64,000 nt of DNA, taken from an uncultured Kiloniellaceae bacterium. Its GTDB lineage: Bacteria > Pseudomonadota > Alphaproteobacteria > Kiloniellales > Kiloniellaceae. The position numbers and the translations under genes were made by a program. The stretch spans positions 546,096-610,095 of the forward strand of contig CANLSF010000005.1 in the NCBI GenBank assembly GCA_947493695.1. Reading direction: 5' to 3'. A model generated the notes under the pieces. The model saw nothing but the letters and a program-made list of their open reading frames with translations, was not told the origin of the DNA and did no database searches. Of this stretch, positions 14,057 to 36,990 are shown piece after piece. The first letter of the stretch is position 1. Each line of letters begins with the position of its first letter.

Positions 14057-14061
14057 AATTC

Positions 14062-14087
14062 TATATATCATGTTTTATTGATATATA
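14062..14087. promoter_or_regulatory. Inverted repeat upstream of arsR-arsC, probable ArsR operator
   Basis: A perfect 9-bp inverted repeat, TATATATCA at 14062-14070 and TGATATATA at 14079-14087, with an 8-bp spacer. It lies directly before the chosen start of the ArsR-ArsC gene. The AT-rich arms could also serve as the -10 region. ArsR-family repressors commonly bind such AT-rich palindromes, so autoregulation is inferred. Confidence 0.6.
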
Positions 14088-14260: not shown

Positions 14261-15595
14261 TCAAGCCGTAACCCGAAGGCCAGCCGCTTGACTTGATGGT
14301 GCCTTATGGAACTTGCCATCCTTCATGATCGCGAGCAGGCGGTTCTTGTCCTGCAGAATCCGGACATCGGCGACAGGATCACCATCAACCAACAGGAGAT
14401 CGGCCAGGAAGCCCTCGCGAATCATCCCTAACTCATTGCCCATGCCCATGATCTGCCCCCCATACTTGGTCGCCGCCTGGATTGCCTCCATAGGCGACAT
14501 GCCGAGCAGATCGACGAAAGTATGGATGTCAGTGGCGTTGGTGCCTTGTGGCGTCCAGGCGAAGCCATAGTCGCCGCCGATCAACACCCGGATGCCACGT
14601 TTGTGCATCTTTTTCATCGTTTCGACCGCCATCTCCAATTCGCGCTCGTATGCAATGGTGATCGGGGTGCCCGGCTTGATTCCGTAATCACCGGCATTGC
14701 GCGAAGTATTGATCAACCAGGCGAGGCCAGGTGCGACGAAGTGCTTGTCCTTGGCGGCTTCAAGCATATCCAGAGCTTCTTCATCCGCGAAGGAGGCATG
14801 ATAGATGTACTCGATTCCATGCCGGACGCACTGCTTGACTGATTCCGATGACCGGGCGTGGGCGGCGAGTGACTTCCCTCTTACACGTGCCTCACGCACC
14901 GCCATGGCGATCTCTTCTTCGGACATGGGCGTTTCCTCCGCGCCCATACCGGTGATCTCTTCGCCGGAGAGATTGAGCTTGATGGTATCAACGCCGTATT
15001 TGATGAGCTCACGCACCGTCCGCCGGATTTCCTCCGGCCCGGAAACCACAATTCCAAGGTTCATGCCTTCATGCTGGATATGCGGCGGCGAGGTATCACC
15101 CAGACCGCCAACGGTGGTGATCTCCGGACCGGCAGCCGTATACCGCGGACCGGGAATACGACCCTCGTTGATGAAATTTCGGATCACAACATCAAGTCGA
15201 TGCTTTGCTGCGGCGGCCCCGCGACCAGCAGTGAACCCGGCATCCAGCATGATCTTCGCCATCTCAGCGGTGACCAGGACATGCTCTTCCAGCGGCATCA
15301 TTTGGATCGGCGCAATGCCGGGTGCGTTGTTCCAGCTTAGATGAAGATGGGCATCGATCAGCCCGGGCATCAAAGTTGCCCCCCGTCCATCAATCCGTTG
15401 GCCACCACCATTTCCCCAGGCGTACCCCCCGCTGGAGCGGCTGACCGACTTGATGCGATTTCCCTCAACCACAACTTCACCTGTGTAGGGCGCTTCGCCA
15501 GTGGCATCCAAAACCCTGACATTGGTAAAGGTAATGGCGCTGTCGCTCACTGTACTGCGTCCACCACCCCAATCGGTATAGTTGGTATCGGCCAT
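14261..15595 (-). CDS. Imidazolonepropionase-like amidohydrolase
   Basis: 444 residues of the metal-dependent amidohydrolase superfamily. Visible ligands are His83 and His85 (DAHLHLS), probable carboxylated Lys206 (DTIKLNLSG), His246 (AAHARSS), His266 (YIYHASF) and Asp342 (GGDYGF). A small beta domain is built from the N- and C-termini. It hydrolyses a cyclic amide, lactam or similar C-N bond; the substrate is not evident. It is the last gene of the 12-gene operon, starting 30 bp after the alpha/beta hydrolase. Together with the fumarylacetoacetase-family and alpha/beta-hydrolase genes it points to breakdown of a ring compound. Confidence 0.88.
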   Translation of the reverse strand: MADTNYTDWGGGRSTVSDSAITFTNVRVLDATGEAPYTGEVVVEGNRIKSVSRSSGGYAWGNGGGQRIDGRGATLMPGLIDAHLHLSWNNAPGIAPIQMMPLEEHVLVTAEMAKIMLDAGFTAGRGAAAAKHRLDVVIRNFINEGRIPGPRYTAAGPEITTVGGLGDTSPPHIQHEGMNLGIVVSGPEEIRRTVRELIKYGVDTIKLNLSGEEITGMGAEETPMSEEEIAMAVREARVRGKSLAAHARSSESVKQCVRHGIEYIYHASFADEEALDMLEAAKDKHFVAPGLAWLINTSRNAGDYGIKPGTPITIAYERELEMAVETMKKMHKRGIRVLIGGDYGFAWTPQGTNATDIHTFVDLLGMSPMEAIQAATKYGGQIMGMGNELGMIREGFLADLLLVDGDPVADVRILQDKNRLLAIMKDGKFHKAPSSQAAGLRVTA

Positions 15596-15625
15596 CGCTA
15601 TATCCTTCCCATCCGCTTCGTCAGA

Positions 15626-16399
15626 TTAGTTTCCGTTCAATTGCAAACGGAGATGCTCGGATGTTTCCTCCGGCATTTCCATCATGGTCCAATGCCCGCA
15701 GTCGGGCAGGACGTGGAGCTCAGCTCCGGTAATCCGTGCCGCGAGCGCCTCCGCCATTTTAGGAGGGGCAACAACATCCTCAGCGCCGGTCACCAGCCTG
15801 GTCGGGCAGGAAATCGCGCTGTGATCGGGCGGTCGCACGTCGGCCAGTGCCTCGCAATGGCGGGCATAGCCGGCTGGGTCCTGGCGCATAAGGCTCTCGC
15901 GTACAAATGCAACAATCGCGCTATTCGTTTCCTTGGTTCTCGCCGAGAGGCTGGCGTTCGATACGGCATCGGCAATACCGCTCATGCCATTTTTGCGGGC
16001 TTCTTCCGCCCGGGCCTGCAAGGCTTCGCGCGCCGGCGGGGGTGGCTCGAGGATCGGCCCAAAAAGGGTCATGCTCTTGACCAGTTCGGGTTGCGATGCC
16101 GCAAGCTCCTGACAGATCACAGTGCCCATGGAGTGACCCACAAAATGCGCGCTCGTAATAGCCTGTGCGCGCAGCATCTCCGAGACCGCGGCTGACAGAC
16201 CTTTTATTCCGGCCAGCCCGGGGCGAATAGACGAGCGCCCCGCACCTGGAAGGTCAGGCCGGATCGCCCGAAAGCCCTGCAATGCCGGCATCAGACGCTG
16301 GAACGTGTTGGAGCTCCCGCCCAAACCGTGAATCAGCACCACAACCGGTCCTTCTCCGGTTACTTCACTCACCATGCTACCAAGATTGATATCGACCAT
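15626..16399 (-). CDS. Alpha/beta hydrolase
   Basis: 257 residues with the complete catalytic triad: nucleophile Ser90 in GHSMG, acid Asp208 (GAEDVV) and His236 (CGHWTMM), with the oxyanion segment HGLGGSS at 24-30. This resembles 3-oxoadipate enol-lactonase and meta-cleavage hydrolases, which open lactones or split C-C bonds in aromatic catabolism. Its ATG follows the stop of the fumarylacetoacetase-family gene by 3 bp, so it is co-transcribed. Exact substrate unknown. Confidence 0.9.
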   Translation of the reverse strand: MVDINLGSMVSEVTGEGPVVVLIHGLGGSSNTFQRLMPALQGFRAIRPDLPGAGRSSIRPGLAGIKGLSAAVSEMLRAQAITSAHFVGHSMGTVICQELAASQPELVKSMTLFGPILEPPPPAREALQARAEEARKNGMSGIADAVSNASLSARTKETNSAIVAFVRESLMRQDPAGYARHCEALADVRPPDHSAISCPTRLVTGAEDVVAPPKMAEALAARITGAELHVLPDCGHWTMMEMPEETSEHLRLQLNGN

Positions 16400-16402
16400 A
16401 AT

Positions 16403-17269
16403 TCAATAGGCCTCCACCGGGTTGTCCAGGCGCCCGATCCCTTCGATCTCAACAGACATCTTATCGCCTGACTTAAGATACTTCGGCGGATTAAACCCGA
16501 TCCCCACCCCCGCCGGAGTTCCCGTCGCAATCACGTCTCCCGGCATCAGCGTCAAGCCGTTTGAGATGGCCGCAATGATGGTTGGTACATCGAAAATCAG
16601 GAGTTTGATGTTGGAGTCCTGGCGCAATTCACCATTGATCCAACAACGGATCGCCGCATCCTCCAGGTTCATTTCGTCGGCGGTGACCGCCCAGGGGCCC
16701 ATTGGACAAAAGCTGTCCTGCGACTTGCCGATCAGCCATTGACTGTGCTGCCCCTGGAGATCCCGGGCCGTCACATCATTGACGATGGTGTAACCCCACA
16801 CATGGGACAGCGCGTCTTCCGCCCGGATGTTGCGCCCGCCCTTGCCAATGATGACCGTGAGCTCAGCCTCATAGTCGATGGCTTCGGAAACAGATCGGTC
16901 AATCCTTACCGGCGCCTGCGCAGGGACGACACTCTCCGGTGTCTTGGAAAAGACAATCGGATGCTCCGGCACTGCGCCCTTGGCCGCCGAACTATCGAAC
17001 CCCGAAGAGGCAAATTCCTGCGCATGCTCATGGTAATTCTTCCCGACACAGAAGACATTCCGGCGTGGGCGCGGAATTGGCGCGCAGAGGGTCACCTCCG
17101 ACAGGGGCACCGGGCTTCCTTTCGGCGGCATCCGTCGACCGATCAACGCAGTGACCCCGGCTTCGTCTGCGGCACCGAGTGGCAAATCAAAGGGCGCGAC
17201 CGTCTGCGCGGATTCATCGACCTGTCCGACACGCCGGACAGCATTCCAATCAAAGACGGCTATTTTCAC
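16403..17269 (-). CDS. Fumarylacetoacetate hydrolase family protein
   Basis: 288 residues, a typical FAH-family enzyme. It has a short N-terminal domain and a C-terminal barrel with metal ligands Glu134, Glu136 (DYEAEL) and Asp165 (VNDVTARD), the FCVGKNYHEHAQE segment, and GDVIATGTPAGVG near the end. Members are acylpyruvases, hydratases or decarboxylases such as 2-hydroxyhepta-2,4-diene-1,7-dioate isomerase-like enzymes acting at the end of aromatic ring-cleavage routes. It starts at a GTG that overlaps the stop of the upstream oxidoreductase gene (GTGA, 17266-17269), so expression is coupled. Confidence 0.9.
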   Translation of the reverse strand: MKIAVFDWNAVRRVGQVDESAQTVAPFDLPLGAADEAGVTALIGRRMPPKGSPVPLSEVTLCAPIPRPRRNVFCVGKNYHEHAQEFASSGFDSSAAKGAVPEHPIVFSKTPESVVPAQAPVRIDRSVSEAIDYEAELTVIIGKGGRNIRAEDALSHVWGYTIVNDVTARDLQGQHSQWLIGKSQDSFCPMGPWAVTADEMNLEDAAIRCWINGELRQDSNIKLLIFDVPTIIAAISNGLTLMPGDVIATGTPAGVGIGFNPPKYLKSGDKMSVEIEGIGRLDNPVEAY

Positions 17270-18735
17270 AGGTTGTCCCCCGGTATGAGAATTGTCGATC
17301 CCGTTGTGTTCCGCGCTTCAAGATCGCGATGCGCCCGCGCGGCTTCCGAAAGCGCCAATCGCTGGCCAACATCGACACTCACTGCCCCCGAGCGCAGTGC
17401 CTCGAAAAAGCGTGATGTAATCTCAGCCACCTTCTCAGGCGTATCGGTGTAATGACCAAAGTTCGGGCGGGAGATTGTCGCGGAGCGCGCAGAAAGCGCA
17501 CCGATATCCCAGGCGCCAACAGGCCCGGAAGCCTGCCCATAGCTGACCAGATGTCCCTGGATTGCCAGCGCCCGCAGGGAATGCGCGAAGCTATCCCGGC
17601 CTACCGCATCAAAGATCACGTCGGCCCCGCGACCTTCGGTGAGCTCCATGACCTGAGTCTCAAGGCTGGTATCGCCAGGCAGAATTACTTCCTGCGCACC
17701 CGCGGCCTTCGCTGCCGCTGCTTTTTCCGGACTTGAAGTGGCACCAATCACACGAGCGCCAAGATGAGAGGCCCATTGGCAAAGCATACGGCCAACCCCG
17801 CCAGCAGGCGCGTAGACCAGTAGGTTTTCCCCGGGCTGCAGCCTGTGAACTCGATGCAACAGAAATTCCGCAGTCATCCCCTTGAGAAGGCTAGCAGCGG
17901 CAACTTCGTCGCTCACATCCTCGGGCAGGCGAAAGACCAGATTCGCAGACATGGTCCTGTGACTGGCATAAGCCCCCACAGGTGGACAGGCATAGCCAAC
18001 CCGATCGCCAACGCTCAGGCGCGATACCCCCTGCCCCACGTCGAGGACGATACCCGCGGCTTCCATTCCGGGCACAGCGGGCGGCGTCAACAGATCGAAA
18101 TATCCAGTGCGGCAATAGACATCGATGAAATTCACACCGATGGCCGTATGACGGAGCCTCACCTCGCCGGGTCCGGGCGGAGGCACCTGCACCTGCACCA
18201 GCGTCAATTCCTCAGGGCCGCCGTGGCGTCGGACCACAACAGCCTCGCCCTCAATGGCCCCGGCAGCGGAGGCCATCGGAAGTGAGGACGACCTCTGAGC
18301 TCCGGATACCAGCGCGCGGATTGCCTCGAAACCCGCATCATAAACGCCTTCTGCAACCAGCTGCGCCAGCTCCTGCTCACGTCCTGCGGGCGGGCGGAAC
18401 TTTGAACGCCAGTCCCAGAATGTGCGCCGCCCGTCTGTAACCGGCTTCAATGCCACATGCGCCACATAATCATTGAGCGGTACATCGCTCTCGACGATCG
18501 CGTAACTGAAACTCCGGTTCTTGTCCGAGAGACTCAGGAGTTGCTCCTTCACCCGCTCACCGCCGGTCAGCCTGAAATCCCGAAGGGATCCGACCTGATC
18601 CGTAAACCTGGCCCCGGCAAGCCTGCTCTCGGCAACAGCAGGATGCCAGCGATCGTGACCGTTGAAGTCGCGCAGAATCCGCCAGACATCGTCAATCGGA
18701 GCATCAAGTACGGTAGAGCGGCGGACCTCGACCAT
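17266..18735 (-). CDS. SRPBCC domain-quinone oxidoreductase (zinc-less MDR) fusion
   Basis: 489 residues from the ATG at 18735, which has GGGAG five nt upstream. Residues about 1-145 form an SRPBCC (START/Bet v 1-like) ligand-binding domain homologous to the small protein encoded just upstream (shared: RDFN, WHP, AES, VRDFRL/LRDFRL, PVTDG-RTF). Residues about 165-489 form a medium-chain quinone oxidoreductase with ATGs-like substrate segments (IGVNFIDVYCRTGYF) and the Rossmann motif AGGVGRMLCQWA. No structural zinc cysteines are seen. It probably reduces an alpha,beta-unsaturated carbonyl with NADPH, with the SRPBCC part binding or delivering the hydrophobic substrate. Stop-to-start distance to the upstream gene is essentially zero. 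Confidence 0.88.
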   Translation of the reverse strand: MVEVRRSTVLDAPIDDVWRILRDFNGHDRWHPAVAESRLAGARFTDQVGSLRDFRLTGGERVKEQLLSLSDKNRSFSYAIVESDVPLNDYVAHVALKPVTDGRRTFWDWRSKFRPPAGREQELAQLVAEGVYDAGFEAIRALVSGAQRSSSLPMASAAGAIEGEAVVVRRHGGPEELTLVQVQVPPPGPGEVRLRHTAIGVNFIDVYCRTGYFDLLTPPAVPGMEAAGIVLDVGQGVSRLSVGDRVGYACPPVGAYASHRTMSANLVFRLPEDVSDEVAAASLLKGMTAEFLLHRVHRLQPGENLLVYAPAGGVGRMLCQWASHLGARVIGATSSPEKAAAAKAAGAQEVILPGDTSLETQVMELTEGRGADVIFDAVGRDSFAHSLRALAIQGHLVSYGQASGPVGAWDIGALSARSATISRPNFGHYTDTPEKVAEITSRFFEALRSGAVSVDVGQRLALSEAARAHRDLEARNTTGSTILIPGDNL

Positions 18736-18736
18736 G

Positions 18737-19174
18737 TTAACTCCCAAAGTGGCTTTTCAGGGCGTTGAAGCCGCCCTGAAAGACATCGCCGCCGATATCC
18801 GCAATCAACTGCGCCTCCGCCCCTGCAGCACACTCAAATTCCGCTGACCATTCGGCAAAGGTACGGTCGCCATCGGTCACGGGCGTCAGCTTCAGGGTCG
18901 CCACGTAGTTTTCGACTCCCATCGGACTTTCCAGGATGGAATAGCTGCAGGAGAACTCGTAGTCGGACAACGCCAGCAACTTCTCGCGAATACGTCCGCC
19001 GTCTTTCAACCGGAAATCACGCACACACCCGACCTGGTCCGATGGTGCGCCGCTTTCGATCCGGCTTTCGGCAATCAAGGGATGCCAGGCCGGTAGCGCG
19101 TTGAAGTCACGGATACGCGCCCAAACCCGCTCGGCCGGCGCATTGATGATCGAGGAGGTGTAGACCTCCGCCAT
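18737..19174 (-). CDS. Stand-alone SRPBCC family protein
   Basis: 145 residues, a full SRPBCC/polyketide-cyclase-like fold with a hydrophobic ligand pocket. It is a paralogue of the N-terminal domain of the fusion protein encoded immediately downstream, so the two genes record a tandem duplication followed by fusion. Function is likely binding of a hydrophobic or aromatic substrate, possibly with cyclase, hydrolase or lyase activity; no catalytic residue can be named. It starts 3 bp after the stop of the flotillin-like gene and is co-transcribed. Confidence 0.85.
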   Translation of the reverse strand: MAEVYTSSIINAPAERVWARIRDFNALPAWHPLIAESRIESGAPSDQVGCVRDFRLKDGGRIREKLLALSDYEFSCSYSILESPMGVENYVATLKLTPVTDGDRTFAEWSAEFECAAGAEAQLIADIGGDVFQGGFNALKSHFGS

Positions 19175-19177
19175 AAC

Positions 19178-21235
19178 CTAATCGTCCTTCTTCGTATCTT
19201 TGGCGCTCTTGGCGAGACTCTGCGCGTCCCGCGCGGCCCGGAAGACGTCGCCCATCCGGGCGACGTTGGAGCCCTCCACGCCGATTTCCTTCATCATCTC
19301 GTCGATCAACGGTGCCTGAGCCCGGTACCGCAAGGCACTCTCGATGACCTCGTCCGTGGGCGAGCGCGGAGCACCATTTCCGCCGCCGCCGCCAAGCCCG
19401 TCCACATGCAGGATCTTGATACCCTCGATGTTCTCCATCGGGCGCACGGACTCACGCACGATGCCCTCAAGTCGCTCGATCAGTTTGCCACGTAGCAGGC
19501 TGGCCCGCGCATCATCGGTGAGGACGTTCTCGGCCTCATTCATGAGCCGCTGAGCTTCGGCGGCAACACCCGCGCGGACCTTCTCGGCCTCCGCTGCGAT
19601 TTTCGCCGTATCTGCGTTCTTGGCGGCCAGCAAACGGTCGATGGCGGCAAGACGATCCGCGACCTCGATCTCACGAATGGTCGTTACCTTTTCTTCCGCG
19701 ACTGCGGCTTCGGCGCGGGCCGTTTCCGTTGACACCCTCGTCGCCGCTTCATCGGACTGTTTATTCAATAGGGCAATTTGCTTATCCAATTCCGCGAGCT
19801 CGATCACCTGCTGCCGTTCGACATCGAGACGCTTGAGGTCCCGCTCCAGCAGAATACGAGCTTCATCCAGTCCCCGGTTAGACGCGATCCGTGCCCGCTC
19901 AACCTCTTCGCGCGCTGAAATCTCAGCCTCGTCTGTTGCCTGACGTTCGGCGATCTGCTGTGACTTCAGGAGTTTCTCACGCTCGATGCGCGCCTTATCG
20001 AGGGCCTGCTCCTGCAGAATTCTCGCCGCTTCAACTGCCTGACGCGCCGAGATCTCGGCTGATTCAATCTGCTGCCCGCGTGCAATCTCTCTGGCCTGGG
20101 TTTCCTCTTCAGACACAATGCGGGCTTCCCGGAGTTGACGGTCGGACACGATGCGCGCGCGTTCGATATCCTCATTCGCCGAGATCTCAGCTACTTCGGT
20201 TGCGTGACGCTGTTGGATCTGCTGGGACCGCAGAAGCTTTTCCCGCTCAATGCGGGCTTTGTCCAAAACCTGTTCCTGCGCGATACGCGCCTGTTCAACC
20301 TCTTCCTGTGCCTTGATTTCCGAGTCTTCCAGCGCGATGCGGCGTTCAATCTCGCGCTTCCTGGTATCCTGTTCCGTGGAAATACGAGCACGAGCTGCCT
20401 CGGCTTCCCGTTCTACCTGTTCCCGCACGATCTCTGCCCGCTGAGCAGCACGCAGCGCTTCAATATCGCGTTCCTGCGACAGGCGCGCGTTTTCGCTTTC
20501 CCGCTCCAGCTCAAGCGTCGCCTTCTCGGCCTCCAGATTCCGACTACGGATCGCAACCATGGAGCCCTGCTCAATATCGTTACGGGCTTTTCGGCGGGTC
20601 TCGATCGCTTCGATCAGCTGGGTCAGGCCTTCTGCGTCAAAGCGGTTTGCAGGATTGAAAAACTCCAGGTCGGTTTGATCAAGATCCGTGATTGCTACGG
20701 ACTCCAGTTCCAGGCCATTTCGCGCCAAAACGTCCATAGCGCGCGCTTCAACCTCACCAACATAGTCGCCACGCTTTTCATGCATCTCATCCAGTGACAT
20801 CTCAGCCGCCACCGACCGCAAAGCGCCAATAAACTTACCGGAAAGCAGATCCGCGAGCCCGTCCGGGTCCATCGTCCGCCGGCCGAGCGTGGCCGCGGCG
20901 GCCGATACCGCTTCCGGCTTTGGAGCGACACGCACGAAAAACTCAGCTTCGATATCTACGCGCATCCGATCGCGGGTAATCACCGCCTCTTCACGGCTGC
21001 GCCGCACCGGGATGCGCACCACATTCATGTTGACGGGTGTCACTTCATGAACGATGGGCAGCACCAGGGCCCCGCCGTTGATCACGACCGTTTCACCGCC
21101 GAAGCCCGTGCGAACGAACGACACTTCCTTCGTCGAACGGTGATAGAGCCAGTGCAAGAGATAGACGACCACCGCGATCCCGATGATCGCAATAATCAGC
21201 CAGAGTATGACCGCGCCAATCAATCCGCTTGTCAT
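19178..21235 (-). CDS. Flotillin/YqiK-like SPFH-domain membrane protein with long repeated coiled coil
   Basis: 685 residues. One N-terminal membrane segment (about 5-27) is followed by an SPFH domain (about 30-200), then a very long Glu/Arg/Gln-rich coiled coil (about 210-560) in which units of the type DKARIEREKLL-SQQI and E-ERARI recur, and a Gly-rich tail. A unit of roughly 85-95 residues appears to be duplicated. Flotillins scaffold ordered membrane microdomains. No NfeD/YqiJ-type partner is present; instead the gene is embedded in a transport and catabolism operon. GGAGGG ribosome-binding site present; 13 bp from the upstream TIM-barrel gene. Confidence 0.9.
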   Translation of the reverse strand: MTSGLIGAVILWLIIAIIGIAVVVYLLHWLYHRSTKEVSFVRTGFGGETVVINGGALVLPIVHEVTPVNMNVVRIPVRRSREEAVITRDRMRVDIEAEFFVRVAPKPEAVSAAAATLGRRTMDPDGLADLLSGKFIGALRSVAAEMSLDEMHEKRGDYVGEVEARAMDVLARNGLELESVAITDLDQTDLEFFNPANRFDAEGLTQLIEAIETRRKARNDIEQGSMVAIRSRNLEAEKATLELERESENARLSQERDIEALRAAQRAEIVREQVEREAEAARARISTEQDTRKREIERRIALEDSEIKAQEEVEQARIAQEQVLDKARIEREKLLRSQQIQQRHATEVAEISANEDIERARIVSDRQLREARIVSEEETQAREIARGQQIESAEISARQAVEAARILQEQALDKARIEREKLLKSQQIAERQATDEAEISAREEVERARIASNRGLDEARILLERDLKRLDVERQQVIELAELDKQIALLNKQSDEAATRVSTETARAEAAVAEEKVTTIREIEVADRLAAIDRLLAAKNADTAKIAAEAEKVRAGVAAEAQRLMNEAENVLTDDARASLLRGKLIERLEGIVRESVRPMENIEGIKILHVDGLGGGGGNGAPRSPTDEVIESALRYRAQAPLIDEMMKEIGVEGSNVARMGDVFRAARDAQSLAKSAKDTKKDD

Positions 21236-21248
21236 GTTTCCCTCCCCT

Positions 21249-22082
21249 TCAGCGACCGCTTATGGCCTTAAAGGCCCGGGTCTGTTCCGTCAGTGCAACC
21301 TCGGTCGGCAGACGCTCCATCGAGGAGGCTCCATAGAATCCGTGGCAGGCTTCGGTATTGCTAAGAACGTAAGTGGCGTCGTCAGGCATGGCGACCGGGC
21401 CGCCGTGAACCAGCACGATGATATCGGGATTGACCCGCAGTGCAGCCGTAGCCCATGCATCGACAAGCGCAGGGCAATCCTGCAACTTGAGCGACGTCTC
21501 CGCGCCGATCGAACCGCCGGTCGTCAGACCCAGGTGGCAAACCACAATGTCGGCACCGGCCTTTGCCATGGCGGTCGCATCGTCTTCGTTAAAGACGTAG
21601 GGTGTGGTGAACATATCCTTTTCATGAGCCATGCGGATCATGTCCACTTCCAGACCGTAGGACATGCCGGTCTCTTCCAGGTTCGCGCGGAAGGTGCCGT
21701 CGATCAGACCGACTGTCGGAAAGTTCTGTACACCGGAGAACCCGACCCGTTTCAGGTCATCGAGAAAGCTGTCGAACACGCAAAAAGGGTCTGTGCCGTT
21801 CACCCCGGCCAACACCGGTGTCTTAGGTGCCATCGGCAAAACTTCAGGCGCCATCTCCATGACGATCTCGTTGGCGTTCCCGTAAGCCAAAAGCCCCGAC
21901 AATGAGCCACGCCCGGCCATCCGGTAACGACCGGAATTGTAAATCACGATCAGATCGATCCCGCCCGCCTCTTCACACTTGGCCGAAAGGCCGGTACCCG
22001 CACCGCCACCAATTATGGGTTGGCCGTTTTCCTTCATTTGCTGAAACTTTTTCAGCAGATCCGATCGCTCAAAGCGCGGCAT
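21249..22082 (-). CDS. Phosphoenolpyruvate hydrolase-like TIM-barrel protein (Tm-1 C-terminal-domain homologue)
   Basis: 277 residues of the family annotated as PEP hydrolase-like or TIM-barrel signal-transduction protein. Recognisable segments are [45 protein letters not shown] and [10 protein letters not shown]. In bacteria it is usually encoded beside a Tm-1-like/UPF0261 protein, and in plant Tm-1 the two are halves of one protein. Here the start overlaps the end of the ATPase-Tm-1 fusion gene by 14 bp, with CGGGAGAG as ribosome-binding site. The biochemical function of the family is not firmly established. Two further proteins in this locus contain related barrels. Confidence 0.88.
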
Positions 22083-24357
22083 GTCGCTCTCTCCCGAGGT
22101 AACTGTCGATTTCTGTCAAAGCGGCGACCGCGGCATCCGTAAAGGCCGGGTCGTTGATGTTATGCGGCAGACGCAGGAGCCGGCGGTTCGCCGTTTCCTT
22201 GAAGCCACTGGAAATTGCATCGAAGAGAGCCTGATCGGCCTCCGGATCGTGGAAAGGCTGACCGGGGGCGTCGAGGGCCGAGACCCCGCCTTCGGGAATC
22301 AAAAAGCGGACAGACCCTTCCATCTGGTTCAGACGCTCGACGATCCAGGCGCCCATACGCCGGTTCTCATCCACAGTCGTACGCATCAGCGTGACCTGCG
22401 GATTGTGCTCGACAAAGTTCCGGCCTTTGTACTTCTGCGGCACGGTTTCCGGTGCCCCGAAGTTGACCATGTCGAGGGCGCCGACGGACCCTACATAGGG
22501 AATCCGCGTTCGGATGAAGGCGCCAAAGCGATCCTCGTCAGCGGCAAAAACACCGCCCATCATCATGTCGCAAATCTCGGTCGTGGTCAGGTCAATGGCC
22601 GCTGTCAACATCCCACTGTCGACCAGTTTCTCCATGGAGCGTCCGCCAACACCGGTGGCGTGGAAGACAAGACAATCGTAATAGTCTTTAAGCTGCGCGG
22701 TGATCTGGCTGACGGCGGTGGTGGTCACACCAAACATGGTCAATCCGAGACCGGGCAAATCTTGCTCGCCATCATGCCTCAAGGGTTTGTCACTCGCCTG
22801 TTTCACCATCCCGGCCAAAGCGTTCGCCCCGTTCGAAAGCACCTGCTTCGAGATACGATTGAGCCCCTGCACGTCTGTCACCGAGTACATCATCATAATA
22901 TCGGAGGGACCGACATACTGACCGACATCTCCAGAGGCGACCGTCGAGATCATCACTTTGGGAATGCCCACCGGCAGCCGCCGCATAGCCGGCGTTGCCA
23001 ACGCAGTACCGCCAGACCCCGCAGCTGAGATAATCCCGCCAATTCCCTCCTGCCGCTGGATCCATCCCTCAAAAGCCTTCGCCATGGCGCGGACCGACGC
23101 ACCGCGATCACCGGTAAAAACACCACTCGCTCCACCGCGGTAATCGGCGGCAATCATGTGTGGGGGGACGTCAGCGCTTGACGGTTTGCCGGAAGTCGAG
23201 ACATCGACCGTCCGTACGGTTAGACCTTGCGCTGCGATGCGGTCGCGAATGTAACGGAGTTCAGCGCTTTTGGTATCAAATGTTCCGACGACCAGAACCT
23301 CCTTGCCGCGCAACTGAGATAGCGGCGTCAAAGCTTCGGCGAAAAGGGGTTCCGGCTTTGCGTCAAAGGGTCGGCTTTTCGCGTCTGGAGCATCGCGCGC
23401 CTGGTCCTCTCGCTCTGCGTCCAGCGTGGTGCCCGTGCTGACCTCACCTGTCCGTTCTTTCCAGGCGGCGCTGGACCAGCGTGTCGGAGGAACATAGAGC
23501 ACCTTTCGCGGTTTGGTATCCGGCGTGGGCGCGGGCACTGCTTGCTGCGGCACAGGCTCTTCGCCGGCGTCAGGTACTGGCGCTACTTCTTCCCTCGGCG
23601 GCAGGTCGAGATCCTCGTGCGAATGACGTCCCACGCCTAACAAGCGCTCCTGCAGCGTCCGGTCATTGGCGAGCTGTCCTGCCGGCAGAACCCGATTGAT
23701 CCGGCCATTCACCATAATTGCGATGTTTTCGGCGATGGCCGTCGCCACGCCGATGTTCTGCTCGATCAGCAAAACGGAGACATCGCCCTCCTCGGCAAGC
23801 TTCGCCAGCATGTCTTCGACCTGTTGGACAATGACCGGCGCCAAACCCTCGGTCGGCTCGTCCAGAACCAGAAGTTCCGGGTCCTGCAGCAAGGCGCGCG
23901 CAATCGCGACCATCTGCTGCTCACCGCCGGAAAGCTGTCCACCGCCATTGCTCCTGCGCTCCGCAAGGCGTGGAAAGGTGTCGTAGATCCGCTCAATCGT
24001 CCAGGTGCTGCCGCCCCGGTCTGAAAGACGCATGTGTTCGTCGACTGTAAGCGAGGGCCAAAGCCTCCGTCCTTGAGGCGTATAACCAATGCCAAGGGTC
24101 GCAATCCGATGTGGCGGCAGTTTGGTCAGCTCGTCACCATGGAAGCGGATCGAGCCGCGGCTCGCCGGCACCAGTCCCATGATCGCGTTACAGAGCGTCG
24201 TCTTGCCCATACCGTTGCGCCCGACGATGGCCTGAACGCCATGCTCCAGCATGAAGTCAACGCCCTGCAGGGCGTGGGAACTACCATAAAAGACATGCAG
24301 ATCCCGGATCTGGAGAACACTGTCTGAAGGCTTCCTGCTCCGCTGGCGTTCAGGCAT
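22069..24357 (-). CDS. LivF-like ABC ATPase fused to Tm-1-like (UPF0261) domain
   Basis: 762 residues from the ATG at 24357 (GGGAGG five nt upstream; a GTG at 24363 falls within that site). Residues about 10-245 form a branched-chain-amino-acid-type ATPase: Walker A GRNGMGKT at 46-53, signature LSGGEQQ, Walker [13 protein letters not shown] Pro/Glu-rich linker of about 100 residues follows. From about 350 to the end is a complete UPF0261/Tm-1-like domain beginning [19 protein letters not shown] and containing [18 protein letters not shown] and [14 protein letters not shown] segments. The two parts are normally separate proteins. This is the only LivF present, so the fusion must serve the importer. 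It overlaps livG by 8 bp and the TIM-barrel gene by 14 bp. Confidence 0.9.
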
Positions 24358-25135
24358 GTTCACCTCCCAGGTAGAGTTCCTGAACTTCCGGATCGTTCTC
24401 GATCTCCTCCGGATCGCCTTCTTTAAAGATCCGTCCGTTGTGCATCATGGTTACGCTCTCCGCGACGCGCAGAGCGACATCCATGTCGTGTTCGATAATG
24501 ATAAAGCCGATATGAGCCGGCAGCGCCTGTAGAATTTCGATCAGCTCGCTGCGTTCGGTCGGCGACAGGCCTGCGGCAGGTTCATCGAAAAGGATGAAAC
24601 GCGGGGCTCCCGCCAGGGCAAGGGCAATTTCGAGCTGCCGCTGCTGCCCGTGGCTGAGTTCCGCGACAAGACTGTCGCGCTCAGCTCCGAGATGTACAGC
24701 ATCAAGCAAAGTTTCGGCTGAGTGTGTCATGGCGTCGTCCGGCTTTGGACGCCGCAAGGAAAGTCGCCCCCGGCTCGCGCCACGACAGGCGAGATAAACA
24801 TTGTCGACCACACTCAGACCATCAAAGAGTAGGGAGATCTGATAGGTTCGCCTCAGTCCACGCCGAATTCTTTCATGAACCGGAAGATCGGTGACATCTT
24901 CACCGAACAACCGAACGCGGCCCGTCGTCGGCGGGAAGTCGCCTGTGATCGCGTTGAAGAGCGTGGTCTTTCCTGCCCCGTTAGAACCCAGAACCGCACG
25001 CCGCTCACCCGCCTTGACGGTCAGGTTAATGTCCGCCAGGGCCACCAGCGCACCGAAATGGCGGCTGACGGCCTCGAGTTCCAGCGCATACTGGCCAGTA
25101 CTCTGCAGACGGGTAAGGGCGTCGGTCCGGAGCAT
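24350..25135 (-). CDS. Branched-chain-amino-acid-type ABC transporter ATPase (LivG-like)
   Basis: 261 residues: Walker A GSNGAGKTT, a variant signature LSHGQQRQ in place of LSGGQ, and Walker B FILFDEPAAGLSP, followed by the H-loop histidine (IIEHDMD). It pairs with the fusion ATPase to energise the importer on the cytoplasmic face. It lies 10 bp after the substrate-binding-protein gene. The long insert between Walker A and signature (about 85-130) is typical of LivG. Confidence 0.93.
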   Translation of the reverse strand: MLRTDALTRLQSTGQYALELEAVSRHFGALVALADINLTVKAGERRAVLGSNGAGKTTLFNAITGDFPPTTGRVRLFGEDVTDLPVHERIRRGLRRTYQISLLFDGLSVVDNVYLACRGASRGRLSLRRPKPDDAMTHSAETLLDAVHLGAERDSLVAELSHGQQRQLEIALALAGAPRFILFDEPAAGLSPTERSELIEILQALPAHIGFIIIEHDMDVALRVAESVTMMHNGRIFKEGDPEEIENDPEVQELYLGGEHA

Positions 25136-25145
25136 TAGGTCAGCC

Positions 25146-26396
25146 TCAACCGCACTTTGGGTTTTCGCGGCTGACCGGGCCGTACTTCAAGAACTCATCA
25201 TATGAAACCCCCAGGGTCTGGCTGACCGATGGGATAACCTTGATGGTCTTGTTCAGCAGATTTCCATCCGGCCCTTCTGCGACCTCGGTCAGGAAGATAT
25301 CGGCAACAGCATTGCGCCGCTCATCCAGTTTGACCATGCCCGTCGGGGTCTCGAAGGAAAGACCGGACAGAACATCGCGGTACTTCTTGCCGCCGTCAGA
25401 AAGATCTCCACCGACCTTATCAAGGGCCAGCAATGCCGCCTTTGTATTGATATAGTAGGCATGGGCGAAGAGTGAAGGAGATGGAAATCCATCCGGGAAC
25501 TGGGCTTTGTAAGCGTCGACAAACTCCTGCCAACTTGGATTATCCCAGGTGTCGGAAATCGGACCGGCTGAAGGCGTCCCCACCACAAAATCGCGGGTCC
25601 GGCCCTTTGATCCCAGGACAGTCTGATCAACCGTGATGGAACCACCGACCAACGGCAGATCACCACCGGCTTGCTCATATTGGGTCAGGAAATTGACAGC
25701 ATCGGCTCCACCGAGTGCCACGTAAATGGCATCAACATCGTCAGGCAGGGCAGCGATGACGGAAGAATAGTCCTTGTTGCCAATCGGTACCCAGAAGCGG
25801 GCGTCCGCCGGGGCTTTTCCGCCCAGACGGCAGAAAGGCTCCAAAAACCCGAAGACCTGGGTGTAAGGGAAAGAGTAATCCTCAGCGAGCACAGCAACGC
25901 TGCGATAACCCTTTTCCTTGTAGACATACTCACCCAGTCCCGCCATCCACTGCGCGCCTTCTGTGCCGAAGCGGAAGAAGTTTTCAGCCGGATCGCGTAA
26001 GGTAGTGTCCTGGGCTGCGGAAGAGCCGTTCAGGAAAGTGACGTCAGGCTGGGTTTTCGCGTAATCCTTGACCGCCAAACCTTCCGAGCCTGAAAGCGGG
26101 CCCACTAGGACCTTCACGCCGTCCTGTTCTACAAGCTTGCGCGTCGCCCGGATGGCACTGTCCGGCGAAGCATCGGACGAGCCGGTAATGAGTTCGATTT
26201 TTTTACCGCCTGCTGTGTACTTGAATTCCTCCAGCGCCATCTTGACGCCGCGCATGGAATCCTCACCCAATACCGTGAAGGCGCCTTCCAGGGTCGCCAG
26301 CGCCCCCATCTTCACAGAATCTTCCTGTGCCAATGCCGGGCCTGCCAGCGTGGCCGCGACAGCTGCTGCAATCAAAGTCCGCTTATCGGTTATCAT
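25146..26396 (-). CDS. Periplasmic substrate-binding protein of Liv-type ABC importer
   Basis: 416 residues with a signal peptide (MITDKRTLIAAAVAATLAG, cleavage likely after ALA near residue 23) and a type I periplasmic binding fold (GALATLEGAFTVLGEDSMRG..., VLVGPLSGSEG). It is related to branched-chain amino acid, amide and aromatic-acid binding proteins. The ligand is not predictable by eye; the catabolic genes in the same operon suggest an aromatic or cyclic compound rather than leucine. GGGAGG ribosome-binding site six nt before the ATG. Confidence 0.92.
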   Translation of the reverse strand: MITDKRTLIAAAVAATLAGPALAQEDSVKMGALATLEGAFTVLGEDSMRGVKMALEEFKYTAGGKKIELITGSSDASPDSAIRATRKLVEQDGVKVLVGPLSGSEGLAVKDYAKTQPDVTFLNGSSAAQDTTLRDPAENFFRFGTEGAQWMAGLGEYVYKEKGYRSVAVLAEDYSFPYTQVFGFLEPFCRLGGKAPADARFWVPIGNKDYSSVIAALPDDVDAIYVALGGADAVNFLTQYEQAGGDLPLVGGSITVDQTVLGSKGRTRDFVVGTPSAGPISDTWDNPSWQEFVDAYKAQFPDGFPSPSLFAHAYYINTKAALLALDKVGGDLSDGGKKYRDVLSGLSFETPTGMVKLDERRNAVADIFLTEVAEGPDGNLLNKTIKVIPSVSQTLGVSYDEFLKYGPVSRENPKCG

Positions 26397-26450
26397 TTTT
26401 TCCTCCCTATTGTGGGTTGACCGTGCTCGGGCCTTTTCGCCTGATCCCGG

Positions 26451-27482
26451 TTATTGCCCACCGCCGCTGTCCGACGGTGTGCGTCGCTTGAGCATCAATG
26501 CGTCTTTCATGCGCATCCAAAGCCCGAGCAGGCCGTCCGGTGAAAAAAGGACGACCAGAAGAAAAGCAAGTCCGATGACCGTGTTGAAACGTTCCCGGTC
26601 GATCAGATCGATGGCAAAATTTTCTAAAAGAACGAAGGCCAGCGCACCGATGAAAGGCCCGATCGGATGGCGCATACCGCCGACCACCGCGATGACCAGG
26701 ATATCGATGACCACATCTACCCCGACCGAACCCGGTGAGATACGGCCGTTGAACCAAACCATCAGAACCCCGGCGGTTCCGGCAATCAATCCCGCCAGCC
26801 AGTATGCAAAGATGCGGTGCAAGGTAACATCGTACCCAATCGCACGCATACGCCGCGGGTTGTCGCGAATGGCCTGCAGGCTAAGCCCGAAGGTCGAACG
26901 CGCGCCATAGAGAACCGCAAAGAAAAAGAAAGCCGCGACTGCGAGACTCAGATAGTAGAAAGGCGTTGGATTACGCCAATAAACACCGAAAAGAACCGGC
27001 GGCTCGACTCCCGCATAACCGGTGAATCCGTTGAAGATGACGTAATTCTGACGCACGAAGTAGAAGAACGCGACGGCAATCGCGAGGGTGATCATGATCG
27101 TGTAGATCCCCTCGGTCCGCACCGATATCGCGCCGATCAGCGCACTAAAGACCGATGCCGCAAAAATTGCGGTCAGGGCCGTCAACCACCAGGGCCACCC
27201 CAGGCCCATGACACCTACGGAGTTATCTCCGAGGATCGCCATCAGATAACCTGCCAGGCCCGCGACTGTCAGTTGAGACAGGCTGACCATGCCACCATAA
27301 CCGGCCAACATCATCAGCGACAATGCGATGGTGCCGAGCACCAGCGAGTAAGCCCCGATCTGGAAGACAAAAAAGTTCGAGGCAAACGCCGGATAGAACA
27401 ACAGAAAGACAGCAACCAGAGCCGCAGCGGGATGAATGGTCGGAAGCCTGTTTTTGCCGGCGATAAGGGAAAGATCAGCCAT
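26451..27482 (-). CDS. Liv-type ABC transporter permease (LivM-like)
   Basis: 343 residues with about nine to ten hydrophobic segments and the family pattern (GYGGMVSLSQLTVAGLAGY near 65-85; GGMRHPIGPFIGA near 268-280). It forms the inner-membrane channel with the LivH-like permease encoded 3 bp upstream. GGGGAG ribosome-binding site overlaps the end of the upstream gene, consistent with coupled translation. Confidence 0.92.
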   Translation of the reverse strand: MADLSLIAGKNRLPTIHPAAALVAVFLLFYPAFASNFFVFQIGAYSLVLGTIALSLMMLAGYGGMVSLSQLTVAGLAGYLMAILGDNSVGVMGLGWPWWLTALTAIFAASVFSALIGAISVRTEGIYTIMITLAIAVAFFYFVRQNYVIFNGFTGYAGVEPPVLFGVYWRNPTPFYYLSLAVAAFFFFAVLYGARSTFGLSLQAIRDNPRRMRAIGYDVTLHRIFAYWLAGLIAGTAGVLMVWFNGRISPGSVGVDVVIDILVIAVVGGMRHPIGPFIGALAFVLLENFAIDLIDRERFNTVIGLAFLLVVLFSPDGLLGLWMRMKDALMLKRRTPSDSGGGQ

Positions 27483-27485
27483 AGT

Positions 27486-28589
27486 CTAGCTACTCCCCAT
27501 AATGCCCTGCGGACGCACCGCCAGCACCACGACCATGATCACGAAAGTCAGCACCACGCCGTAGGTCGGGAAGTATGCCAACCCGAACTGCTCAGCCAAG
27601 CCGATCAGCAGTGCACCGATAGCTGCGCCAGGTACGGATCCCATGCCGCCGACAATGACCACGACGAGGGATGCCAGGAGGTAGCGGATATCCTCGCCCG
27701 GCGCGATTGAAAGTGCGGTACCGCCGATGACGCCGGCAAAACCGGCCAGACCGGCACCAATTGCAAACACGAGCGCGAAGACGACCTGTACGTTCACGCC
27801 GGACGCCGCAAGCATGTCCCGGTCATTCACCCCCGCACGAATCATCATGCCTACGCGTGTCCGGTTCAGGAACAGCCAGAGCGCAATGCCAACCGCGATA
27901 GCCACCGCCAGCACCGCCAAACGATAGATCGGATATTTGAGGAAAACCTCCTGGCCCGAGGAGCGTATGGTCGAGATAATCGGGAGTTCTGCAGCGCCGA
28001 ACAACCACTCCGGCGGCGCAAACTGATAGGTCGTGCCTGACCAGGTCGCCAGCATGAGGTCCGCCGCAACAATCGAGACACCGATGGTCACCAGGGTTTG
28101 GCGGAGGTCATCGCCTTCCATCCTCCGAAAGACAAGAACCTGCAGCAAAATACCGGTAATTGCGATTGCGATGAAGGCGGCACCCAGGCCGACAAACCAG
28201 TTCCCTGAGACCTCAGCCGCCTCGTAGCCGATGTAGGCTCCGAGCAGGTACATCGAGCCGTGGGCCAGATTTACATTGCGCATCAGTCCAAAGACGAGCG
28301 TGAAACCACTGGCCACCAGAAAATAGAGTCCGGCCAGGGTAAGGCCGTTGAGAAAGGTGTTTACGAAGGTTTTCTTGCGCCCAAGCGTTGAGATCATCCA
28401 ATCCGGCCAGACCGCAAAGATCATCCAGAGGAAGATGCCCGCCGAAATCAGGATCACAATCGCCCAGAAAGTGTGCCGCTCGATAAATCGCCTCAAGAGG
28501 TCACGCCTCCAGCCGACACGATTTCGGAACACGGGTCCGGCAAGGACACCCGGATCAGATGGCCAAGCGGCATAGAACGCAATGTCCAT
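27486..28589 (-). CDS. Liv-type ABC transporter permease (LivH-like)
   Basis: 367 residues from the ATG at 28589 (GGAAAG a few nt upstream). The frame remains open to 28727, but those 46 residues look non-conserved. An N-terminal extension of roughly 75 residues with one extra hydrophobic segment (IVILISAGIFLWMIFAV) precedes the usual permease core, which has FGLMRNVNLAHGSMYLLGAY and GGMGSVPGAAIGALLIG. It is the first gene of a 12-gene operon running to 14261. Confidence 0.9.
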   Translation of the reverse strand: MDIAFYAAWPSDPGVLAGPVFRNRVGWRRDLLRRFIERHTFWAIVILISAGIFLWMIFAVWPDWMISTLGRKKTFVNTFLNGLTLAGLYFLVASGFTLVFGLMRNVNLAHGSMYLLGAYIGYEAAEVSGNWFVGLGAAFIAIAITGILLQVLVFRRMEGDDLRQTLVTIGVSIVAADLMLATWSGTTYQFAPPEWLFGAAELPIISTIRSSGQEVFLKYPIYRLAVLAVAIAVGIALWLFLNRTRVGMMIRAGVNDRDMLAASGVNVQVVFALVFAIGAGLAGFAGVIGGTALSIAPGEDIRYLLASLVVVIVGGMGSVPGAAIGALLIGLAEQFGLAYFPTYGVVLTFVIMVVVLAVRPQGIMGSS

Positions 28590-29014
28590 CGTCCGGACTT
28601 TCCATTCAGCCTGTCGCCCATTTTTCCGCAGCATATCGACGCCGGAACACCGCGCGTCAAATGCATCGCCAAGCTCATGGATACCATGATCTCTCGTGCC
28701 TCCCTCGATGCCATCTCGTTCCAGCAAGACGACGTTTTTTATGGGATGGTCTGGCTATGAGTTCCGGGGTACATGTCCCAGGCTCGCTTGGTGACGTCCC
28801 ATACTGCCTTTTTGGCGTTGACTTGAGTGTGGAGAGGAAAATTAACCCTCACAAGCCGGTTTAATTGCGATTTTGGGTAATATCGGGTAAATATTGAGGC
28901 ATGCTGCGGAATCATTTGAGCTGGGACATTACCTTGCGGGAGGAGTCGCGCTGGCAATCACCGGCGTTACCGCCTGCTATTCTGACCACCCGTCCCCGCT
29001 TTCCGGAAACGGGA
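28590..29014. other. Divergent promoter region of the Liv/Tm-1 operon
   Basis: This stretch separates the start of the 12-gene minus-strand operon from a plus-strand gene and should contain both promoters. At 28875-28894 there is an imperfect direct repeat, GGGTAATAT followed by GGGTAAATAT, a possible regulator site. No convincing -24/-12 sigma-54 promoter was found by eye. If the downstream plus-strand gene starts at 28901 instead of 29015, its first codons fall here. Confidence 0.4.
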
Positions 29015-29620
29015 ATGCCCAACGAAGTCGCGCTATTGCTGCCGAACGATCATGGCGCCTCAGATCTCATTTCCAAAGTTCTGACTATGCCGTCGTATCT
29101 TCAGGCTCGCGCACTCGGCCTTTTCCTTGCCGACCCCTTTTTTAATGCCGGCACCGAAGCGGCACGGATGCGTGATACCGGAATCAAGTGGGTCGCCAAT
29201 CTGCCCTCTGTCGAACAACAGGATCAGGAATTCGTGCAACTGCTCGGCGACGTCGGGCTCGACCGCAGTATGGAAATCAAGCAGCTGGGAGAGCTGGCCG
29301 CAGCCGGATTCCAGGTCCTGGCTGTGGTCTCCGGTCCTGAAGCAGTCGAGGCCGCGGCCAGGATCAACCCGGCTGCATTTTTCGTAATCCCAAAAGTGAC
29401 TGACTTTGCAGCGGGCTTCCCATCCCTGCGCCAGCGTGGAGCGGCTGCAAGAGAGGTCCGTGAGGCTGCCAGCAATGCCGGGTGGAAAGGCGCGTTACTG
29501 GGTCTCGCTGCCGAAAGTGAGGTTGCGCACGAAACGCTCTGGCCTGATGTGCTCGACGGTGTGGTCTGCCGACCCGTCCCGATTGCAGCCTTTCCTGCTG
29601 ACGGAGAGCGCACGCAATGA
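29015..29620 (+). CDS. Degenerate PEP-hydrolase-like TIM-barrel protein
   Basis: 201 residues from the ATG at 29015 (GGAAACGGGA just upstream); the frame extends back to an ATG at 28901. I do not recognise a named family with confidence, but the middle aligns by eye with the TIM-barrel protein encoded at 21249-22082: a LADPF-like strand, then WVANLPSVEQQDQEF matching [14 protein letters not shown], then LGDVGLDRSMEIKQLGELAA and FVIPKV. The first strand and its GGGAGTG-type loop are missing, so it is shorter and probably not an enzyme. It is divergent from the transport operon and may be a regulatory or binding offshoot. Confidence 0.6.
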   Translation: MPNEVALLLPNDHGASDLISKVLTMPSYLQARALGLFLADPFFNAGTEAARMRDTGIKWVANLPSVEQQDQEFVQLLGDVGLDRSMEIKQLGELAAAGFQVLAVVSGPEAVEAAARINPAAFFVIPKVTDFAAGFPSLRQRGAAAREVREAASNAGWKGALLGLAAESEVAHETLWPDVLDGVVCRPVPIAAFPADGERTQ

Positions 29621-29740: not shown

Positions 29741-30112
29741 TTGAAGACTTCCAACCTCGTGACAGTGGGGCACGCCTACAGCGGATCTACGGCGGCCCAG
29801 GTGAAGGCAATGCTTGAATCTTCGGGCATAAAGGTTTTCGCTCATCCCTGGTACATGCAGGCATTGCAATGGAATTTGACCCACGCCCTAGGCGGAATTG
29901 AGCTACAGGTACCTGCTTCGCAGGTCGAACTGGCCGAAGTTATCCTTGCCGACGTTGAAATGACATCGCTGTCCAGGAGCAGGCTTTTTTTATTGCTGAT
30001 CGGTGTGATTGGTGTGATCTGGGTCGCCGTACCGCCCCCGCCTTCGGGGTTCTTTGCTACCGTCAGACGACCGGCTATAGCAAGCACTGCCGCCGGGGAA
30101 GTTATCCCTTAA
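29741..30112 (+). CDS. DUF2007-type small protein with one membrane segment
   Basis: 123 residues starting at a TTG. The N-terminal about 70 residues fit the DUF2007 (putative signal-transducing) pattern: an initial strand, AAQVKAMLESSGIKVF, then LGGIELQVPASQVELAEVIL. This is a ferredoxin-like fold found in many bacteria with unknown role. A hydrophobic segment follows (about 80-97), then a Pro-rich tail. The 3' end overlaps the convergent regulator gene by 11 bp. The start codon is uncertain. Confidence 0.6.
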   Translation: MKTSNLVTVGHAYSGSTAAQVKAMLESSGIKVFAHPWYMQALQWNLTHALGGIELQVPASQVELAEVILADVEMTSLSRSRLFLLLIGVIGVIWVAVPPPPSGFFATVRRPAIASTAAGEVIP

Positions 30113-33284: not shown

Positions 33285-33291
33285 CCGCCCC

Positions 33292-34302: not shown

Positions 34303-35010
34303 TCTTCGTCTCCCGACGTTCCGATAGAAATTTGAGGAAAGATTGAGCCCAGGGTGCAAATGCCGTTGCGCCGGAGCTCTCGAACCTCATCTATCAGACT
34401 CAAGCGAAGTGTCGCGATTGAGAGATGAAAAGTTGTCGGAGCGTTGCCCGATATGAGCAAGCGGGTGATGATCTGCAACATGAAAAACAAACTGACGCGC
34501 ACCAAAGAATCGATAGTAAACTCAAAAACATCCGGCCGCTGCAAACAGCAACCGAGCATCGGAAAGCACTGTTTCTGGGACATTTAGGCCGTACAAAGCC
34601 CACAACGCCTAGTGTTTCCCGAATCCGAATAGACAAAAAGAGGCGAATTGAGCCGCTTCTTTTGAACGTCATACTGCGTATAGGTTACATTCAGATGACA
34701 AGGCCGGTCTGCGGAAGATCATTCTTGCCGGTATGTTCCGGAGACAAACTCTCTTCAAGAGTTACAGTGAGGTTAAGCGCCAAGTTCCCGGAAAACCTTG
34801 CAACAGCCTGGCGCCTAGATCCAACAAATACAGAAAACCTGAACACTTCATCAGGAAAACTGAATTGAGCTTCCCTCACCCCTGCCCCAAGGTCACGAAA
34901 CTATAACAGGCAGGCAAGTTAGTCCGGTCGGTTGAAAACTGAGGCTTTATTTCGCGCGGCAAACAAAAACAACGACCACGCGAATGGGGAAAATCTGGGA
35001 GGACACTATT
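34303..35010. other. Intergenic region between GAPDH and TRAP genes
   Basis: About 700 bp. It should hold the divergent promoters of the gapdh-arsJ pair and the TRAP transporter. An open frame at 34425-34868 (+) encodes 147 residues with no recognisable motif, heavy in Arg/Lys/Ser, and no good ribosome-binding site, so I do not call it. GGGAGG at 34997-35002 is the ribosome-binding site of the TRAP binding-protein gene. Confidence 0.4.
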
Positions 35011-36057: not shown

Positions 36058-36080
36058 TAGACGCGTCAGGTTTAAACTGA

Positions 36081-36987: not shown

Positions 36988-36990
36988 TCC

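Follow-up and report, generated by a model that had tools for sequence, protein, structure and literature searches.

The window analysed here, a 64,000-nucleotide stretch of contig CANLSF010000005.1 from an uncultured Kiloniellaceae bacterium, carries on its minus strand a run of twelve open reading frames (ORFs) placed head to tail from position 28589 down to 14261. Judged from sequence and gene neighbourhood, this block is a real, conserved unit, in which a Liv-type ATP-binding cassette (ABC) importer is combined with a UPF0261 domain fused to its second ATPase, a PEP-hydrolase-like barrel, a flotillin and several downstream enzymes. We see roughly even chances that the operon mediates uptake of a hydroxylated, probably aromatic compound, its phosphorylation by the LivF-fused UPF0261 domain and its subsequent degradation by the barrel, SRPBCC, redox and hydrolytic enzymes. 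The genes, with their Pfam families, are as follows:

27486..28589, minus strand: LivH-type permease (BPD_transp_2, 1e-35)
26451..27482, minus strand: LivM-type permease (BPD_transp_2, 2.2e-32)
25146..26396, minus strand: LivK-type periplasmic binding protein (Peripla_BP_6, 7.2e-52; nearest PDB chains 4zpj, 4ey3, 4evq)
24350..25135, minus strand: LivG-type ATPase (ABC_tran, 3.8e-29; Walker A and B present)
22069..24363, minus strand: LivF-type ATPase fused to a UPF0261 (Tm-1) domain, the latter a predicted small-molecule kinase (764 aa in all; ABC_tran, UPF0261 and UPF0261_C)
21249..22082, minus strand: PEP-hydrolase-like TIM barrel, with a phosphorylated intermediate as its predicted ligand (PEP_hydrolase, PF09370 1.4e-129; 2p10 1.1e-121)
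19178..21235, minus strand: flotillin with hydrophobic N-terminal segment (Band_7 3e-16, Flot 1.5e-33)
18737..19174, minus strand: SRPBCC protein (Polyketide_cyc2, PF10604 1.2e-26)
17266..18747, minus strand: SRPBCC domain fused to a zinc-less medium-chain oxidoreductase of NADPH:quinone reductase type (PF10604 4.1e-23; ADH_N/ADH_zinc_N, PF00107 1.6e-24)
16403..17269, minus strand: FAH-family enzyme (FAA_hydrolase, PF01557 1.8e-72)
15626..16399, minus strand: alpha/beta hydrolase (Abhydrolase_1, PF00561 7.5e-30; GHSMG motif)
14261..15595, minus strand: amidohydrolase of the Xaa-Pro dipeptidase/arginine carboxypeptidase/ochratoxinase group (Amidohydro_1, PF01979 5.6e-32)

A preliminary description of this DNA had already noted twelve tightly spaced genes on one strand and named their families; both points were borne out, with gaps from livH to the amidohydrolase gene of +3, +54, +10, -14, -14, +13, +3, -11, -4, +3 and +30 bp and a matching Pfam family for all twelve proteins. 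All twelve genes are under purifying selection (dN/dS 0.013-0.097 against three same-genus loci, a rough estimate as dS often exceeded 1).

The preliminary description had also proposed that conserved co-occurrence of UPF0261, the PEP-hydrolase-like protein, Liv components and an SPFH protein would support a unit, and such co-occurrence was found. At the level of the order, UPF0261 was present in 22 of 61 genomes, giving 23 matches of which the window is the twenty-third, and flotillin accompanied it in 19 of the 20 fetched loci, one of the 19 being cut by a contig end. Two further matches on short contigs were left out of the fetched loci, and the exception, L041, is a second UPF0261 copy, 32% identical, without flotillin. 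In the class sample UPF0261 occurred in 55 of 387 genomes, and 17 of the 40 UPF0261 loci fetched from outside the order contained flotillin. When the operon flotillin was used as query against the same 387 genomes, matches appeared in 59; in the 20 best-scoring genomes the flotillin gene always adjoined UPF0261 by coordinates, while G164 (334.9 bits) has a flotillin without UPF0261 and G112 (334.8 bits) one adjoining it. Matches with lower scores were to ordinary flotillins, and the window's own genome accounts for two of these. The flotillin-UPF0261 unit is thereby present in 21 of the 387 class genomes, distributed over 14 families. A wider set comprised the best 80 of at least 589 UPF0261 relatives in named genomes, and its rates are biased because the loci were picked by similarity to the window's domain. 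Among these best 80 the flotillin version was found in Hwanghaeella, Pelagibius, Fodinicurvata, Bradyrhizobium, Mesorhizobium, Jannaschia, Hoeflea and Azospirillum, and further in Variovorax, Burkholderiales, Granulosicoccus and one metagenome-assembled genome of Rokuibacteriota.

Linkage within the block was counted on 154 unique UPF0261 loci (of 160), 137 of which extended at least 4 kb downstream. The LivF-UPF0261 fusion and flotillin were both present in 92 of these 137 and both absent in 40, leaving five discordant loci: L119, fused without flotillin, and L047, L111, L138 and L159, in which flotillin is present but no fusion in frame (L111 itself begins within the region). Furthermore, the operon exists in two mutually exclusive redox versions. 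Counted over the 87 flotillin loci that reach 8 kb or more downstream, a quinone-oxidoreductase type enzyme is encoded in 47, as in the window, a molybdenum hydroxylase in 39, neither in one (L042) and both in none. The molybdenum hydroxylase of L035 was recognised by its Pfam domains FAD_binding_5, Fer2_2, Ald_Xan_dh_C, MoCoBD_1 and MoCoBD_2. The amidohydrolase accompanies the oxidoreductase version in 49 of 53 cases and the molybdenum hydroxylase version in none of 43. Literature searches, judged mostly by title among the matches listed, yielded no publication that we recognised as describing this operon or its importer-ATPase/UPF0261/flotillin layout.

The importer set of HAAT type (Liv) is complete, with two BPD_transp_2 permeases, a binding protein and two intact ATPases. 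Walker A and B are kept in both ATPases and LSGGE in the LivF part; the signature motif pattern gave no match in LivG. No NCBIfam equivalog reached its curated cut-off, the LivH, LivM, LivG, LivF and Urt models all scoring far below it (LivH 86.9 versus 379, UrtB 164.9 versus 250.3, UrtE 221.7 versus 285.8), and therefore neither amino acids nor urea are indicated as ligand. Known Liv/HAAT importers of branched-chain amino acids and urea share with the block the two permeases, the binding protein and the two ATPases, but differ from it in that here the second ATPase carries a UPF0261 domain and the equivalog scores stay below cut-off. The nearest PDB matches of LivK were 4zpj in first place, followed by the Rhodopseudomonas palustris-type binding proteins 4ey3 and 4evq, which we take to bind aromatic acids.

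In the fusion protein a proline-rich linker of roughly 100 residues joins the LivF ATPase to a domain that clearly belongs to UPF0261 (PF06792 209.1 bits and PF23189 297 bits, cut-offs 27). Across 17 UPF0261 domains, unfused ones included, 93 alignment columns are invariant, and 59 of these 93 residues also occur in PDB entry 9mpy. According to its title this entry is the UPF0261 protein Saro_1862 with bound acetovanillone, and it fits the window domain structurally. One paper describes the kinase MarK as starting acetovanillone catabolism in Novosphingobium aromaticivorans, the organism of 9mpy (PMC13101465), and we infer that MarK is Saro_1862. The fused domain thus probably phosphorylates a hydroxyl group of the imported compound, a function predicted from homology. 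The preliminary description had stated that the Tm-1-like/PEP-hydrolase-like pair has no agreed bacterial role; this no longer holds for UPF0261, which now has a candidate role since 9mpy holds acetovanillone and the MarK kinase starts acetovanillone breakdown. In plant Tm-1, UPF0261 is fused to the PEP-hydrolase-like/TBST barrel, whereas in the window its fusion partner is the ABC ATPase, the barrel having a gene of its own. As a separate observation, the Brucella UPF0261 gene BAB2_1127 is reported to be a signature-tagged mutagenesis hit (PMC2364660).

The barrel encoded next is an equally clear member of its family (PF09370, 431.4 bits against a cut-off of 33.8), whose name "PEP hydrolase" stems from a putative assignment in the title of 2p10. 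Its structure model has 2p10 as nearest fold, followed by the phosphate-binding barrels TrpC, TrpA and TIM. A barrel gene is present in 122 of the 137 UPF0261 loci, usually after UPF0261. The flotillin, identified by its SPFH/Band_7 and Flot domains, begins with a long hydrophobic segment. As for the enzymes further downstream, the SRPBCC-oxidoreductase scored 290.7 bits against NF008024 (cut-off 348), and a motif scan found no CxxC in it. For the alpha/beta hydrolase the nearest described models are those of 3-oxoadipate enol-lactonase (TIGR02427, 140.2 bits, cut-off 255.85), and the amidohydrolase, which keeps the HxH motif and matches 3mtw, 2qs8 and 4c5y in the PDB, reached 238.8 bits with NF051886 against a cut-off of 500.

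Upstream of livH lie two genes that fall outside the region covered by the preliminary description and were overlooked there, together with a probable operator:

28852..28854, minus strand: TTG within a -35-like element, at a distance of 20 bp from the operator repeat, an offset kept at most of the hand-picked sites
28875..28890, minus strand: probable operator TTACCC-N4-TTACCC, 0 mismatches, upstream of livH
28901..29620, plus strand: divergent PEP_hydrolase-like gene, its true start possibly further downstream (PF09370 1.9e-4, under the curated cut-off)
30102..31841, minus strand: regulator with a PEP_hydrolase-type sensor, a degenerate AAA+ region and a Fis-type helix-turn-helix (PF09370 1e-57, HTH_8 1.7e-11)

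The divergent gene sits between regulator and operon, is kept in 20 loci of the regulator type and evolves under purifying selection, with dN/dS of 0.080-0.090. Hence, with the operon barrel and the regulator sensor, three members of one barrel family occur together as enzyme, sensor and divergent copy, a trio also seen in the NGR234, Azospirillum and Qingshengfaniella records. The sensor has retained the enzyme's phosphate-loop residues but carries substitutions at its invariant histidines: R52, R54, G57, S60, N120, E145, Y162, G185, G189, G227, G228, G248 and S253 are kept in all 14 aligned regulators, in which H226 is changed to E (14 of 14), H183 to N (10 of 14) and E37 to A (13 of 14), H183 and H226 being invariant in 16 barrel enzymes.

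The operon is probably regulated as a unit through the putative operator upstream of livH. The motif was defined from an alignment of four same-genus livH leaders. With one mismatch allowed, it was recovered at 20 of the 23 regulator loci kept apart from its definition (0.33 expected from 30 shuffles, with a maximum of 1) and at 2 of the 128 loci that lack the regulator. The misses are L027, L079 and L087, the last having two sites at two mismatches. At up to one mismatch the window holds a single operator copy, the one upstream of livH. Genome-wide this is the one perfect site, accompanied by ten with one mismatch, and the backward control gave ten in all. In 21 of the 23 loci with both regulator and livH, two duplicates among them, the distance from the operator down to the livH match is 172-372 bp. 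In 21 of 29 hand-picked sites TTG follows exactly 20 bp after the repeat, and in 4 at 19 bp; no signal for a third operator repeat was seen. Sigma-70-like consensus promoters were no more frequent than expected within 13-32.5 kb (4 found versus 7.0).

The regulator resembles sigma-54-dependent Fis-family activators in its helix-turn-helix, and the relative in L079 has an intact sigma-54 AAA+ match, but the window protein differs from these activators by motif loss and by its enzyme-like barrel as sensor. Sigma-54 control is unlikely because GAFTGA is missing in 29 of 29 regulators and Walker A is also lost in the window clade. A sigma-54 promoter was likewise rejected: a scan for TGGCAC-N5-TTGC with up to two mismatches gave no site at 28590-29000, and its window-wide total was 51, compared with 70.8 for shuffled sequence. 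A leader riboswitch was discarded too, with no Rfam match in the window and a fold z of -1.49 equalled by 16 of 200 shuffles. One stretch of the livH leader, at 28690-28760, is strongly conserved within the genus and has no Rfam match. A plus-strand ORF of 123 aa (29741-30112), situated between the regulator and the divergent barrel gene, was left out of the parts since Pfam gave no match for it and the three same-genus loci hold no counterpart.

Taken together, these elements suggest a possible sequence of events. The ligand would be imported by LivHMKGF, as the protein families indicate; the UPF0261 domain, as a relative of Saro_1862, would then move phosphate from ATP to a ligand hydroxyl, and we propose that its tethering to the importer might trap the ligand inside the cell. 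The PEP-hydrolase-like barrel could hold the ligand by its phosphate during a lyase or hydrolase reaction. The membrane-anchored flotillin would gather both SRPBCC units together with the oxidoreductase, and these may handle a hydrophobic product. Breakdown would be completed by the FAH enzyme, the alpha/beta hydrolase and the amidohydrolase, and the regulator sensor might bind the phosphorylated intermediate and turn on the promoter. A more specific version, tentative and with the chances leaning against it, is that of an ABC importer with a built-in kinase, the ligand being phosphorylated as it leaves the channel (group translocation) and passed to the barrel and the flotillin-anchored SRPBCC-oxidoreductase under a regulator whose sensor derives from the barrel enzyme. 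Should the imported ligand indeed be phosphorylated by the fused domain, a single ABC subunit would combine transport with chemical trapping. The long-unassigned UPF0261/PEP-hydrolase-like pair, ancestral to the plant Tm-1 resistance gene, gains a testable place in an uptake-catabolism operon, and the operator and the enzyme-derived sensor offer a route to the regulon, and hence the substrate, by reporter screens. The function of flotillins in bacteria is debated, and one with fixed operon partners would provide a defined cargo for this protein class.

Among described systems, the closest is MarK-type acetovanillone catabolism of N. aromaticivorans (Saro_1862, 9mpy), where UPF0261 is not fused to an ABC protein and to which the window adds barrel, importer and flotillin. 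The HpeHI/AcvAB hydroxyphenylethanone pathway is alike in placing phosphorylation before breakdown, and its authors propose trapping by phosphorylation; uptake is there thought passive, and HpeHI, a dikinase built from ATP-grasp and swivel domains, belongs to a family unrelated to UPF0261 (PMC12167813). A HpeHI-type dikinase as homologue was rejected; PPDK ATP-grasp and PEP-utilizer swivel domains are absent from the twelve proteins. A second phenol-kinase-like pair of the HpeHI kind does occur inside a UPF0261 cluster, which we count in favour of uptake coupled to phosphorylation: on a Thermomicrobium roseum plasmid (L093), PPDK_N and PEP-utilizer proteins are encoded at 12425-13396 and 16262-17956, sharing a cluster with genes for UPF0261, the barrel and Liv components.

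Several observations weigh against import and phosphorylation of an aromatic compound as set out above. Identity with Saro_1862 is only 30-34%, and the account of MarK has it as a single-component kinase and mentions no partner of TIM-barrel type (PMC13101465). The Hpe, Acv and MarK acetovanillone pathways use a carboxylase and a phosphatase as later steps, and no biotin-dependent carboxylase or phosphatase domain was found among the twelve proteins, the rest of the genome not having been searched. The barrel gene is missing between UPF0261 and flotillin in ten Mesorhizobium-type loci of the wider set (L131, L149, L151, L159, L160, L163, L165, L172, L181 and L182); eight of these genomes were searched, and all eight hold a full-length barrel copy elsewhere, which in six of them adjoins a further UPF0261 on the fetched sequence. 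Moreover, UPF0261-barrel pairs without flotillin adjoin importers of sugar type, with Gfo/Idh oxidoreductases, cupins and ThuA as further neighbours, and others stand beside a BMP-type importer or have no importer in view. The ligand therefore need not be aromatic. Uptake and breakdown of a ring compound, as originally suggested, has become likelier through 9mpy and MarK, but an exclusively aromatic reading is weakened by the pairs at sugar-type importers.

Accordingly, the same import and phosphorylation logic might apply to a polyol, sugar acid or glycoside, a possibility that we regard as real but on the doubtful side. Sugar-type ABC importers adjoin the pairs of NGR234, Bosea, Terrarubrum, Rhizobium, Paraburkholderia and Qingshengfaniella, often with a Gfo/Idh oxidoreductase and a cupin, and the same operator-like repeat is found at sugar-importer pairs. 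The flotillin operons, however, have a Liv-type importer, whose LivK is, after 4zpj, nearest to binding proteins presumably specific for aromatic acids, and the solved relative 9mpy holds acetovanillone. It is unlikely that UPF0261 is instead a non-catalytic ATP-binding control domain gating the importer ATPase: covalent fusion to the ATPase would suit such a role, as would the inhibition of a viral replication protein by plant Tm-1 (PMC5028733), but the 93 invariant columns extend to unfused domains, a barrel gene usually comes next, and a family member has been solved with a small aromatic ligand.

CoxG-type SRPBCC proteins have been proposed to handle quinones or lipids, and the flotillin-SRPBCC-oxidoreductase set could accordingly be a quinone/lipid handling module in an operon for membrane lipid turnover rather than for an outside compound. 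This would agree with the hydrophobic segment of the flotillin and with the CO-dehydrogenase-like molybdenum hydroxylase replacing the oxidoreductase in 39 of the 87 flotillin loci; we consider it quite improbable given the Liv-type importer with its periplasmic binding protein, the three hydrolases of the window's type and the dedicated regulator with an enzyme-derived sensor. Arsenic genes flank the operon on both sides, with acr3 and an arsR-arsC fusion downstream (12127-14071) and arsJ with its GAPDH upstream (31992-34359), and a GAPDH gene lies near the operon also in the same-genus loci L031 and L033. Nevertheless, a role in arsenic or organoarsenical detoxification is very improbable and was rejected, as ars genes adjoin the operon only in same-genus loci; in the other loci fetched from the order, the class and the wider set at most one arsR-type match was found (L081, without flotillin). 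Finally, the idea that the twelve genes are neighbours without a common function, for which nothing more than their mixed annotation speaks, retains a negligible probability: it is refuted by conservation, a chance neighbourhood being excluded because the gene set recurs across many genomes, and it is further opposed by the coincidence of fusion and flotillin, the exclusive redox modules and the single operator.

Elsewhere in the window, genes resembling those of a Na+-translocating NADH:quinone reductase were observed at 53298-59236, encoding NqrA, NqrB and an NqrF-like protein. A TRAP transporter adjoining an aldehyde dehydrogenase lies at 34984-38439, and an ABC importer of peptide type at 45314-50844.

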